64,000 nt of DNA from Bacteriovoracaceae bacterium (lineage in GTDB: Bacteria; Bdellovibrionota; Bacteriovoracia; Bacteriovoracales; Bacteriovoracaceae): the NCBI GenBank assembly GCA_947446575.1, contig CANFHC010000013.1, positions 1 to 64,000 of the forward strand. Direction: 5' to 3'. The position numbers and the translations under genes were made by a program. Within the stretch, counting starts at the first letter, position 1. Each line of letters begins with the position of its first letter. Of the stretch, positions 3,327 to 46,906 are shown in pieces. The notes under the pieces were generated by a model. The model worked only from the letters and a program-made list of their open reading frames with translations. It was not told the DNA's origin and did no database searches.

Positions 3327-3398
3327 ATGAAAAAAGCAGCAACTAAAAAAGTAAGATCAACGAGTATGAGAAGATCAGCATCAGCTAAAAAACATTAA
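3327..3398 (+). CDS. very small, strongly basic 23-residue protein
   Basis: An ATG at 3327, five bases after a good AAGGAGT ribosome binding site, opens a 23-codon frame ending TAA at 3396-3398. The peptide begins MKKAATKKVRS and ends in SAKKH. It has nine Lys/Arg, one His and no acidic residue, with Ala, Ser and Thr making up most of the rest, like the tails of histone-like or DNA-compacting proteins. Its stop codon overlaps that of the convergent rhomboid-GNAT gene by four bases. The ribosome site and composition argue for a real gene; function (nucleic-acid binding?) is inference only. Confidence 0.6.
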   Translation: MKKAATKKVRSTSMRRSASAKKH

Positions 3399-4567
3399 TA
3401 AATATTACTAAGAAAATTAGTGATAAAAGGAAGGGAGACTCTCTTCCTTTTTTTTTCCATCACAGCCACCACACCATTAGGAGTGACCAGATTTTCAAGT
3501 CGTAAAAAACCAGCTTTGCGATAAGCACGAATGGCAGGTTTATTTATGGCAGCTGGAGTCGAAACGACTATATTAACATTTTCTTTTTCTAACAACTCGT
3601 CTGAAAATTTTTTTATAAAACTTGAACCAATCCCCTTGCCCAATAAATTTTTATCCGCAATAAATTGATCTATTCCTAAGACGCCTGCTGGAAAATTTTT
3701 CGCAATATAACTTTGAATAAATCCTATCGGCTTTTCTTTGTGATAAACGATAAACGGATTGTCTGAAATAACTCCTCTCCAATTTTTTGCCACATGCTCG
3801 CGCTTAAGCCAAGCGTTTAACATTGCTGAATCTTGAGACTCTAGTGGTTTAAAAATTATATTATCCGTACTAAAATGTTCCCAATCAAAAACTTCTTCAT
3901 CTTCATTAATTTCTTCTATTATCTCTGCTTTATTAAAAGTTTTATGAAAAAATAAATAGACAAAAACTCCTGAAAATACTCCCAAAACATACCCTAAAAA
4001 ATGACTAAGATAACTTATTTCTGGCAAAAATGTCGTTGGAAAAAAAAGAACAATCGAAACTCCGGTAACTTTTAAAAATCGCTGCAGTAATGATTCCCTT
4101 CGATCAATGAAAAAAGCTAGAGTCATCCAAGCAGCACCCATCCAGTAAACGACACCCGAAACTCCAACGATCGTTGAGTCTGGAGAAAGATTTTGAATGA
4201 CAATAAAATTGATTAATCCCCCCAAAAGAAATCCAATCGCTGGAAAGAGAAGTAGACTAAAATATCTTGAGAGAAAATATGCAAAGGGCACGAATAAAAA
4301 TAAATTTCCTAAAATATGGCCAAGGTCTCCATGAGCAAACAGTGCCGTCCATAAACGCCAATACTGATGATGCTTGATCACTAAGCTTGCGGAGGCAGGC
4401 ATCCAATCGGCCGCATGAAAAATATCATTGAGATAAATCAATGAGCCAAATAACAACAGACTAACCAAAAAGAGCGTACTATTGAGTCCGCCTCCTGGTA
4501 ACTTTCTAGTGATCCAATTTTCTTTTATGCGTCTTCTCATTTCCATGGGAGAAAAGATGGGAGTCAA
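3395..4567 (-). CDS. rhomboid intramembrane protease fused to a GNAT acetyltransferase
   Basis: 390 residues in two parts. Residues about 30-212 are a rhomboid: H79/H84/N88 in the second helix, GVSG with catalytic S137, and H189 in SHFLGYVLGVFSG, so the Ser-His dyad is present. After an acidic linker (EEINEDEEVFDW), residues about 235-375 are a GNAT of the aminoglycoside 6'-acetyltransferase-like type, with an LLGKGIGSSF acetyl-CoA loop and a NKPAIRAYRKAGF motif. The rhomboid would cleave membrane proteins and the cytoplasmic GNAT would acetylate a small molecule or protein. The pairing in one chain is unusual. The start is ATG. The 3' end overlaps the small basic gene convergently. Confidence 0.88.
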   Translation of the reverse strand: MTPIFSPMEMRRRIKENWITRKLPGGGLNSTLFLVSLLLFGSLIYLNDIFHAADWMPASASLVIKHHQYWRLWTALFAHGDLGHILGNLFLFVPFAYFLSRYFSLLLFPAIGFLLGGLINFIVIQNLSPDSTIVGVSGVVYWMGAAWMTLAFFIDRRESLLQRFLKVTGVSIVLFFPTTFLPEISYLSHFLGYVLGVFSGVFVYLFFHKTFNKAEIIEEINEDEEVFDWEHFSTDNIIFKPLESQDSAMLNAWLKREHVAKNWRGVISDNPFIVYHKEKPIGFIQSYIAKNFPAGVLGIDQFIADKNLLGKGIGSSFIKKFSDELLEKENVNIVVSTPAAINKPAIRAYRKAGFLRLENLVTPNGVVAVMEKKRKRVSLPFITNFLSNIY

Positions 4568-18039: not shown

Positions 18040-18996
18040 TTACAAAAAAAGTATCATCGACATGGAAACTTCTTGAAGGAGATAATTATTGTAAGCTACT
18101 CCCACTAATACGTGTTTATTGAGAAGATATTGAGCCCCATAATAAATATCATTTTTTGTATTTTGGTAAAGTAATTGGCCTTCGCCAAATGCCGAATTTG
18201 AAGAGACCTCACTTCTTTGCGCAAGATTGAACATCCATCTTCCTAGTTGAAATGAGGCGGAGTACAGTTTCACCTGAGTTTGCAGAGGATAAAATTTGTA
18301 CTTAGTATTGATAGCTCCCATATCCAAGGAAAGTCTGCCCAAACTCATGCCCAAAGTATAAGTATAAACTTTAAATGTTTCTTGATAAGTTGGGCTGTTG
18401 TAATAAGTAGAATAAGCAGTACCTGTATCAGGATCAAGATTTGATCCTAAATTAACTTTAACATCATCGCTATAAGTATAGGCTCCCATCGTAAACATAA
18501 ATAACCTTGCCGATGCTCCCACTCCTGGATTAATTTTTTTTATATCTGGATTTCTTTTAGCCGATAAACCAATATCAATACTTACATTTTTTTTCTCTAT
18601 GAGACTTAATCCCAAAGCTAAACTAATCTTTTCATTTTTGTATTGTTTTTTATTGAGCCTACGGGTGAGATAATCACTACTCATTTCAATTGGACGATTT
18701 CCGAAAAAACTATTTTCCTCGGTATTGGAAACGAGGGCACCGAATTTCCCGGTTCCACTTGCGAGGTCAAATTTCAGTGGATTGCCAGCCTGGTATCTAG
18801 TTTCAATTCCAAGTCCTTTTATTTTACTAATATTACTGGGATTTAAACTTCCGGCAGAACTAGTTGAAGGAAGTGACCTCCCACTACTGCGCTCAGATGC
18901 CCCCGAACTTCCACAATGAATAAAATAATTGCAAAGATCTTCATCAGCAAACGCAATATTTGATAAAACAAGTTGTAGGAAAAGAAATAATTTAAT
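18040..18996 (-). CDS. secreted, probably outer-membrane beta-barrel protein with an ATT start
   Basis: 318 residues if read from ATT at 18996. From that codon the product begins MKLFLFLQLVLSNIAFA, a complete signal peptide, and then DEDLCNYFIHCGSSG and a Ser/Gly-rich stretch. Six bases before the ATT is AAAAGG. A stop codon lies four codons upstream of the ATT, and no ATG, GTG or TTG occurs in frame until the ATG at 18684, which would remove the signal peptide. The C-terminal two thirds alternate polar and hydrophobic residues with many Tyr, like a beta-barrel, and end in the aromatic-containing SMSMILFL. Family not recognised. The gene could also be a start-codon mutant. Confidence 0.68.
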   Translation of the reverse strand: MKLFLFLQLVLSNIAFADEDLCNYFIHCGSSGASERSSGRSLPSTSSAGSLNPSNISKIKGLGIETRYQAGNPLKFDLASGTGKFGALVSNTEENSFFGNRPIEMSSDYLTRRLNKKQYKNEKISLALGLSLIEKKNVSIDIGLSAKRNPDIKKINPGVGASARLFMFTMGAYTYSDDVKVNLGSNLDPDTGTAYSTYYNSPTYQETFKVYTYTLGMSLGRLSLDMGAINTKYKFYPLQTQVKLYSASFQLGRWMFNLAQRSEVSSNSAFGEGQLLYQNTKNDIYYGAQYLLNKHVLVGVAYNNYLLQEVSMSMILFL

Positions 18997-19077
18997 GATG
19001 AGCCTTTTCTATAAAGTGGCCATTACAACTATAATATTATAATTCCACTTCCGTATTTTTCACAATACGAGAAAAAG

Positions 19078-32485: not shown

Positions 32486-33646
32486 TTAGCGGGGAAGTAA
32501 GTAATAAAGACGACCAGGGTGTCGCATTACTCCTGCTTTCTGAGCAGCATCATCGCCAATTCCAAAATACAGATCAACTCTCCCGCCTCCTGTAATCGCT
32601 CCACCTGTATCTTGATCAAAAACAAATCGTGGTTTTTTAATCCAAGAGGTCGCTTCAATATCTTCAATCGTTGAAAAAACTGGTTCTTCAATTTCTAAAA
32701 AGGCCATAGCACCCTTGGGGAAAAAAGCTTTATCTGTTGCAATAGTTCTTCCAGTACTTACCTCTGCACCCGAATAAGTAATAGCAGCAGTGTCGAGTTT
32801 TTTGAAAAATACGTAACTAGGATTTTTATTTAAAATATTTTGTTGTTCTTTTTTTTGCAACGTTTTTAAATGCTCCCGAATTTTTCTCATGCTCATTTTT
32901 TCTATTGGAATAAAATCTGTGAGTAATTTTCCAATGGCCATATATGGAAATCCATTTTGACTATCGTATCCCACATGCATTGATTCTCCATTGCCTAGAT
33001 CGACAATGCCTGAACCTTGGATATGAATAAAAAAGGCATCCACTGGTTCAAGATAGACGAGTTCTAAATTTCTATTTTTCAATTTGAATTCAGAATCAAT
33101 TTCACTGCGGGTGTAATACGGACTAACAATTTTGTCATGAAGCCGACCTTGAAGTGCCCATGGCTTTAATCCAAAAGCTTTATAATCAATAGTCACCATA
33201 TCATCAGGATTCATGTATAAGGGCTGAGAATACTTTTCAGAAGGAACTTTGGAGCCAAGAACTCTTGGTTCATAATAACCAGTGGCCAATACTTCTCCCC
33301 AAGAATCTTTTCCATATACTTCATAAAAATCAAAATTGTGCCGAATGTAATTGATCCAATCGTCTTGGTGATCAAGAATTTTTTCTAACGAATTTAAGTA
33401 AACAATTTTATCTAGGGTTTTATTACCAAAAATCATTTGGTCTTTTACCATTCTTGATTTTTTAATTTCATCGATATGTTTTTTTAGAGCAGAAAAAAAA
33501 CTTTCTTTGCTTAAAGTATCACTAATTGTCGGAGGATTTTTTGCTAATCGCATGGAATCGGCACGTTTGACTAATGGTGCTCGAGCACAAGATGCAAAAA
33601 GTAAAACTAAAATAAGAAGCTGAGTCCAATTTTTAATAACTACCAA
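32486..33646 (-). CDS. mltA: membrane-bound lytic murein transglycosylase A (MltA)
   Basis: About 386 residues. A lipoprotein signal with LLFASC opens it. The MltA domain contains ATGYYEPRVLGS and FIHIQGSGIVDLGNG, and the 3D domain ends with FDQDTGGAITGGGRVDLYFGIGDDAAQKAG, where the Asp is the catalytic acid. It cuts peptidoglycan to anhydromuropeptides. The start is unclear: TTG 33646 touches its only purine-rich site, and an ATT at 33637 nine bases after GGAAG would give MKNWTQLLILVLLFASC. It overlaps the gloA stop. Confidence 0.92.
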   Translation of the reverse strand: MVVIKNWTQLLILVLLFASCARAPLVKRADSMRLAKNPPTISDTLSKESFFSALKKHIDEIKKSRMVKDQMIFGNKTLDKIVYLNSLEKILDHQDDWINYIRHNFDFYEVYGKDSWGEVLATGYYEPRVLGSKVPSEKYSQPLYMNPDDMVTIDYKAFGLKPWALQGRLHDKIVSPYYTRSEIDSEFKLKNRNLELVYLEPVDAFFIHIQGSGIVDLGNGESMHVGYDSQNGFPYMAIGKLLTDFIPIEKMSMRKIREHLKTLQKKEQQNILNKNPSYVFFKKLDTAAITYSGAEVSTGRTIATDKAFFPKGAMAFLEIEEPVFSTIEDIEATSWIKKPRFVFDQDTGGAITGGGRVDLYFGIGDDAAQKAGVMRHPGRLYYLLPR

Positions 33647-45799: not shown

Positions 45800-45993
45800 G
45801 TAATAAGATTTCACAGATATTCTTATATAGTCAAGAGATCAAGAGGATGAATTTCTCCAAAATTGTAAAATTTCACTAGAGCAATAACCTTCTGAGCAGA
45901 AATAAATATCGTCTCGCATTTTCAGAATGATCAACGTTTCAAAAAAACTAACAAAATGATTGGTTATCAATAAGGGGCAATTTAAAATAAAAA

Positions 45994-46011
45994 AGCCACC
46001 CGAAGGTGGCT
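45994..46011 (-). terminator. orphan terminator on the minus strand
   Basis: 7-bp stem AGCCACC (45994-46000) with GGTGGCT (46005-46011) and a tetraloop (cgaa on the plus strand), followed on the minus strand by TTTTTATTTT. It is the right form for Rho-independent termination of leftward transcription, yet genes to its right up to 57.6 kb are all rightward. Confidence 0.75.
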
Positions 46012-46225
46012 CTTACAGCTTGTAGAGAACAAAAAGTACTTCAAACTAAAAATACAATTCTCAACCTTAAGTATATTTTGCGAAAAACAGCTGCAGTAAC
46101 TCTCTGCTTTTCATTACTCTCTGATTAGGTATAAAGCAGGAACAATGCCAAACCGGAATTTCATTAAAAATCTTCTAATTATAAGTTTTATTAAAAATTA
46201 AAAATTAAAAAAGGGACATTATGGG

Positions 46226-46237
46226 ATAGGGCCCTAT
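46226..46237. promoter_or_regulatory. 12-bp GC-centred palindrome before the rhomboid-ftsH pair
   Basis: ATAGGGCCCTAT is an exact palindrome about 64 bases before the rhomboid start. Its GC-rich core is rare in this AT-rich sequence. Candidate operator; no regulator can be named. Confidence 0.4.
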
Positions 46238-46300
46238 GGAAATAAGCACGTTTTCAAAAAAAATGTTTTGTGCAAATATTTTTTTAAGAAGGAGAACTTT

Positions 46301-46906
46301 ATTATTTCAAGCAGCGTCACTTTGAAAATTATTTATTTAAACATCTTCATATTTCTAGTTTGGAATATATATGGAGTTATTAATCCAAACTTCATGATAA
46401 ATAATTTTTTAGTAAGCTGGAATTCACTCGTTCAAGGAAGAATTTGGACTGTCGTGACTTCAGTATTCTCTCATTCAATGCTTTTGCATATTTTCCTTAA
46501 TATGTTTGTTTTGTTTAATTTTGGAATAATAGTAGAAAACTATTTGGGCCAATGGAGATTTTTTATATTTTACCTAGTTGCGGGAATGTCAGGATCTTTA
46601 ATGCATACAATAGTGTGTGCATTTATTTTAAATCAACCAAACGTAATGGCACTGGGGGCTTCCGGCGCCATTTCGGGAGTATTGATTCTTTTTGCCCTAC
46701 TAAACCCTAAAGAAATAATTTTTCTTTTTGGAATTATTCCTCTGCCTGCCATCTGGGCTGCAATTCTCTTTATGGGTATAGATGCCTATGGATTATTTAA
46801 TCAAGCTAGAGGTGTTATGTCCCCCATAGGCTATGGGGCACACTTAGGTGGAGCTATGGTTGGAATTATATATTATTTTGTTATTCGCTTATCCAAAATC
46901 AACTAA
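46301..46906 (+). CDS. rhomboid protease with an apparent ATT start
   Basis: 201 residues from ATT 46301, exactly six bases after AAGGAG. In-frame alternatives are TTG at 46268 (no ribosome site) and TTG at 46322 (no site). Six helices carry HSMLLHIFLNMFVLFNFG, catalytic S121 in ALGASGAIS, and H181 in YGAHLGGAMVG. It cuts within membranes. It lies ten bases before ftsH, so both are probably co-expressed in membrane-protein quality control. The ATT could be a rare start codon. Confidence 0.82.
   Translation: MISSSVTLKIIYLNIFIFLVWNIYGVINPNFMINNFLVSWNSLVQGRIWTVVTSVFSHSMLLHIFLNMFVLFNFGIIVENYLGQWRFFIFYLVAGMSGSLMHTIVCAFILNQPNVMALGASGAISGVLILFALLNPKEIIFLFGIIPLPAIWAAILFMGIDAYGLFNQARGVMSPIGYGAHLGGAMVGIIYYFVIRLSKIN

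Follow-up and report, generated by a model that had tools for sequence, protein, structure and literature searches.

A gene for a rhomboid intramembrane protease in this Bacteriovoracaceae genome appears to be translated from an AUU codon, which in this species would have replaced an ancestral AUG and would initiate at a lower rate. We put the probability of this reading at roughly 0.75. The gene lies in a 64,000-nucleotide stretch of DNA, which is termed the window below (Table 1). Sequence comparison suggests that the AUU start is real and probably used.

The rhomboid locus

The rhomboid reading frame, open from the upstream TAA, has only three canonical start codons up to position 46400, i.e. 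TTG 46268, TTG 46322 and ATG 46394. No in-frame ATG lies ahead of ATT 46301, and ATG 46394 is inside the conserved protein. The AAGGAG motif is separated from the ATT by a six-base spacer, AACTTT (46295–46300), and a second in-frame ATT follows directly at 46304–46306, such that the reading continues ATT ATT TCA AGC. The first-pass annotation had placed the ATT at an ideal distance from AAGGAG and had seen no ribosome site at the TTG codons before and after it. The sequence reading agrees, and neither TTG 46268 nor TTG 46322 has a Shine–Dalgarno match. The chance of finding such a Shine–Dalgarno sequence before a given non-start codon is ~0.0023.

Table 1. Features of the rhomboid locus and of other genes with non-canonical or ambiguous starts. 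Positions are those of the window unless stated otherwise.
Feature	Position	Strand	Basis or remark
Upstream in-frame stop TAA	46199–46201	+	Rhomboid frame open from there
Out-of-frame 20-codon ORF	46263–46325	+	TTGA overlap with TTG 46322
Alternative start TTG	46268–46270	+	No ribosome site
Shine–Dalgarno AAGGAG	46289–46294	+	Direct sequence reading
Proposed AUU start codon (ATT)	46301–46303	+	Ortholog ATG column and Shine–Dalgarno spacing
Rhomboid intramembrane protease, 201 codons plus stop	46301–46906	+	PF01694
Alternative start TTG	46322–46324	+	No ribosome site; overlaps stop of ORF 46263–46325
Accessory ftsH, second of two in genome	46916–48754	+	Nine bases after rhomboid
Gene A, exported unclassified protein, start ATC 18999 or ATT 18996	18040–18999	-	No canonical start in the 108 codons after upstream stop
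Gene C, MltA-type lipoprotein, start ATT AAA 33637 or TTG 33646	32486–33646	-	Start ambiguous
RlmI-like 23S rRNA methyltransferase	L108 11364–10150 = G000:C3 about 131364	-	Outside window

The gene had also been described as an intact rhomboid, and this is borne out by a PF01694 match of 83.9 bits (cut-off 22.6, E 2e-23) and by a frame that runs uninterrupted to the TAA at 46904–46906 on the forward strand. GASG at residues 119–122 and His 181, numbered from the ATT, are present; we take these to be the catalytic residues. The protein was rejected as a rhombosortase (TIGR03902), scoring 35.5 bits against a curated cut-off of 84. At the RNA level, the leader region folds no better than shuffled sequences (z 0.53), and a search of 45815–46420 for known RNA families gave none up to E 0.1.

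The ftsH directly downstream carries its own AAAGGA and ATG, and so may be translated independently of the rhomboid start. The arrangement recalls a partnership reportedly found in work on YqgP and FtsH. A conserved rhomboid–ftsH operon, an idea prompted by that work (PMC7231995), was considered and rejected: among the examined loci ftsH adjoins the rhomboid gene only in this genome, and no other examined rhomboid locus has it in its flank, which covered 1.5 kb or less except in G005, where a 20 kb stretch was used. A separate rhomboid domain, fused to a GNAT acetyltransferase domain, is encoded at 3395–4567 on the reverse strand.

The start column in related species

Across 129 genomes of the family, the search detected the rhomboid gene in 28, this genome included. 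Twenty-eight other loci were inspected and 26 have a readable N-terminus; L076 is at a contig edge and L099 has no N-terminus. The first-pass annotation had proposed aligning relatives, and the alignment places ATT 46301 in the column of the ortholog ATG start in 11 of the 26, the two closest among them. Six of these 11 also have ATGs further upstream. One relative shows TTG in the column and another ATG further up, one has ATG a single codon before the column, and in 13 the likely start is elsewhere, at offsets of −16 to +5 codons. The column thus aligned would be a start strongly, yet not universally, among the relatives. None of the 26 readable relatives carries ATT in this column and, as far as seen, the rhomboid AUU would be confined to this species.

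The sequence AAGGAGGTCCA-ATG is found in the closest ortholog (L003/L074, 70% identical), whose ATG shares the column of ATT 46301. A TAA is located four codons upstream of this ATG, and therefore no upstream start is possible there. In L074 the leader before the ATG is TAAGGAGGTCCA, which has a strong ribosome site, and a stop stands just ahead of the ATG. The next closest ortholog (L075, 60% identical) reads GGAGGAGATT-ATG, i.e. GGAGG, likewise a strong site, and then ATG in the same column.

These comparisons bear on the two TTG codons. TTG 46268 is in frame and open, and a start there would add 11 residues and make AAGGAG merely coding sequence. This is very unlikely, as the codon has no ribosome site ahead of it, the matching stretch of the closest ortholog contains a stop, and the chance of an AAGGAG falling precisely ahead of the ancestral start column would be ~0.002. 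It is scarcely credible that ribosomes reinitiate at TTG 46322 after translating the overlapping 20-codon ORF. Although the TTGA overlap exists and only seven residues ahead of the first membrane helix would be dropped, this TTG has no ribosome site, none is seen for the short ORF either, and the closest ortholog has CCC in that column.

Comparison of L074 with the rhomboid gives pN 0.19 and pS 0.70, with dN about 0.22 and dS about 2, the latter near saturation. To judge from these values, the rhomboid protein is under purifying selection. Perhaps the AUU instead arose recently and all but silences the rhomboid, which would be turning into a pseudogene. A close ortholog is missing from 12 of the 14 genus genomes. 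In addition, a Listeria study describes a reporter in which an ATT start strongly lowered expression; for one gene, ATG to ATT left no fluorescence, a weak band and little product (PMC13068326). The rhomboid AUU may therefore nearly silence the gene. The rhomboid has no stop or frameshift, however, keeps GASG and the His, and shows a low dN, though this value largely records the time before the change. Decay is thus an unlikely account of the locus.

Test for general use of ATT and a proposed initiation mechanism

The first-pass annotation had hinted at general use of ATT as a start. Codons located 4 to 9 bases after a 6-base Shine–Dalgarno sequence were counted in 864 kb (25.5% of the genome; the window and 40 stretches) containing 731 ORFs of at least 120 codons, and sites that also offer a canonical start were left out. 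The observed/expected ratios are 8.07 for ATG, 5.14 for GTG and 2.80 for TTG, and those of the near-cognate codons are 1.07 for ATT, 0.57 for ATC, 1.43 for ATA and 0.65 for CTG. ATT occurs at 14 such sites against about 13 expected. The tandem ATT of the rhomboid accounts for two of the 14; the remaining 12 lie within ORFs, none before codon 50. Behind 5-base Shine–Dalgarno sites the ratio is 1.00 for ATT (65 sites) versus 4.68 for ATG, and earlier counts on 464 kb had the same outcome, with no enrichment of ATT. The counts rule out ATT as an ordinary start genome-wide, and the hint is not upheld. On its own, the pattern of a Shine–Dalgarno sequence with an in-frame ATT is not beyond chance across the genome; the rhomboid ATT stands out because it is at the 5′ end of an ORF and in the ortholog ATG column.

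An unusual IF3 or initiator tRNA had also been suggested as something to look for, and both look normal. There is one infC in the genome, above the Pfam cut-off, and its IF3 aligns throughout with relatives. The identity is 95% with the IF3 of 'Bacteriovorax sp. isolate Gw_Eff_bin_80' and 90% with its counterpart in Bacteriovoracaceae bacterium UBA6153, values that place the genome with Bacteriovoracaceae. The two initiator-type tRNA-Met genes have the anticodon CAT and three G–C pairs (GGG/CCC) in the anticodon stem. The 16S rRNA gene, wanted for its anti-Shine–Dalgarno sequence, was not found in the assembly.

A mechanism can be proposed that requires only ordinary components. The ancestor would have had AUG in the 46301 column behind a Shine–Dalgarno sequence, and a third-position change would have turned it into AUU in this species. 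Placed at an ideal distance, the strong AAGGAG would keep the 30S subunit at the AUU, and therefore the ordinary fMet-tRNA would still initiate and the rhomboid would begin with Met. The rate of initiation would be reduced and set by IF3 proofreading. Use of the AUU and its lower yield are what we infer from the locus, the ortholog column, the conservation of the protein and the normal tRNA and IF3 genes.

Other non-canonical starts

The infC gene begins with AUU in other bacteria too, and its AUU feeds back on IF3. In 9 of the 12 genus genomes (L052, L134–L144), TAA is directly before the infC ATT and the following 39 codons or more lack a canonical start; therefore AUU must be the infC start. 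In G000, G007 and G011 the TAA reads TTA, and because of this an upstream GTG is in frame. Either the ATT or the upstream GTG is a possible infC start in these three genomes. An ATT start of infC is reported as confirmed in Listeria (PMC13068326).

A gene for an RlmI-like 23S rRNA methyltransferase provides a further case. Among 13 genus genomes (L259–L271), the start is CTG in 10, TTG in two, GTG in one and never ATG. A conserved GAGG precedes the CTG, and in 8 of the 10 CTG-start genes the interval between the upstream stop and codon 10 is free of canonical codons. At 17 other-genus loci, drawn from 75 other-genus genomes with a match, the start column has TTG in 6, GTG in 4 and ATG in 4, and in 3 the start is displaced. 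Rare near-cognate starts are real in this genus (Bacteriovoracaceae).

The rhomboid had been called the third unrelated gene in 64 kb with ATT where the start should be. Besides the rhomboid, the analysis identified one certain non-canonical start, that of gene A (18999/18996, minus strand), and an ambiguous one, that of gene C (33637 ATT versus 33646 TTG, minus strand). Gene A has no ATG, GTG or TTG for 108 codons after an upstream TAG, and its homolog in G007 (L054) has none for 124 codons after an upstream TAA. The coding signal begins at the ATT, and the frame opens with a signal-peptide-like stretch by our own reading. Pfam and NCBIfam gave no match for gene A. Among the 20 best loci (54 genomes gave a match), most sister species have GTG near the matching place. 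The G011 homolog (L055) was rejected as a certain case, with an ATG nine codons upstream of GTC-ATT-AAA. Just ahead of gene A, and in its frame, an ATG ORF of four codons ends in TAG. In gene C, TTG is three codons upstream of the ATT. Ungapped extrapolation puts the ATG of 9 of 10 gene C relatives one to three codons after this ATT; the tenth, L253, has other offsets.

A homology check, with flags reviewed by eye, covered 72 ORFs of this genome (28 in the window) that have relatives among the sequence stretches retrieved, and its only candidates were the rhomboid, infC and genes A and C. In Listeria, six of 2265 conserved genes have fixed non-canonical starts (PMC13068326), and therefore a handful of non-canonical starts is not exceptional. 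L105 4340 was left aside because it is probably an antisense artefact. The second entry of the coding-boundary list, L034 1796, was rejected as an odd start since by our reading it looked like a frameshift at a G run. This locus, on the forward strand, is a phosphatase-like ORF seemingly frameshifted at a run of six G, where an assembly error or a variable site is possible.

The ATT at 46301 is known from a single genome, and the doubt that remains about the rhomboid AUU concerns one base in one assembly. If that base were wrong, through assembly error or a minority variant, the cells would carry ATG; a single base separates the ATT from the ancestral ATG, and the genome is in 71 contigs and 95.5% complete. 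Such an error is improbable, as the rhomboid ORF is otherwise intact, and gene A and the RlmI-like gene have non-canonical starts in several independent genomes; non-canonical starts therefore need no error as an explanation.

Comparison with known systems

The rhomboid shares with infC, a case also present in this genus, the AUU, a start codon disfavoured by IF3. The infC AUU is conserved over the genus, whereas the rhomboid AUU is found in one species and has no known feedback. Staphylococcus aureus cvfC1 (AUU) and ccpN (AUA) resemble the rhomboid in having a near-cognate start behind a strong Shine–Dalgarno sequence in an ordinary gene, which lowers yield (PMC13009471). These starts are conserved in related species and were demonstrated by ribosome profiling (PMC13009471), whereas that of the rhomboid is a single-species change known from sequence. 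AUU and AUA starts of S. aureus with extended, strong Shine–Dalgarno sequences gave about 10% of the AUG level in poor medium (PMC13009471). Changes of the Listeria rsbW start from ATG to ATT or ATA are third-position changes that lower translation, as is proposed for the rhomboid; unlike the rhomboid change, they were selected in the laboratory, affect an anti-sigma factor gene and come with population data (PMC13068326). A literature search that covered few subscription papers found no report of a rhomboid with an AUU start, nor of a bacterial RlmI-like gene with a CUG start.

Implications

Gene finders commonly accept only ATG, GTG and TTG, which leads to wrong or missing N-termini for near-cognate genes. 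A gene finder would call a TTG start for the rhomboid and would shorten gene A by about a third.

The rhomboid AUU represents a known phenomenon in a rare, isolated case and gives no new reading rule for the genome. A broader role can be imagined, in which the genus keeps infC (AUU), the RlmI-like gene (CUG), the exported protein (AUU/AUC) and this species' rhomboid (AUU) on near-cognate starts, and in which IF3 level or initiation stringency would set their outputs jointly. This is speculative and doubtful. If true, the loss of the stop before the infC AUU, with a possible upstream GUG, in the G000, G007 and G011 subclade would relax the joint control. That low-efficiency starts can persist for long in Bacteriovoracaceae is suggested by two cases, the conserved CTG of the RlmI-like gene and the infC ATT.
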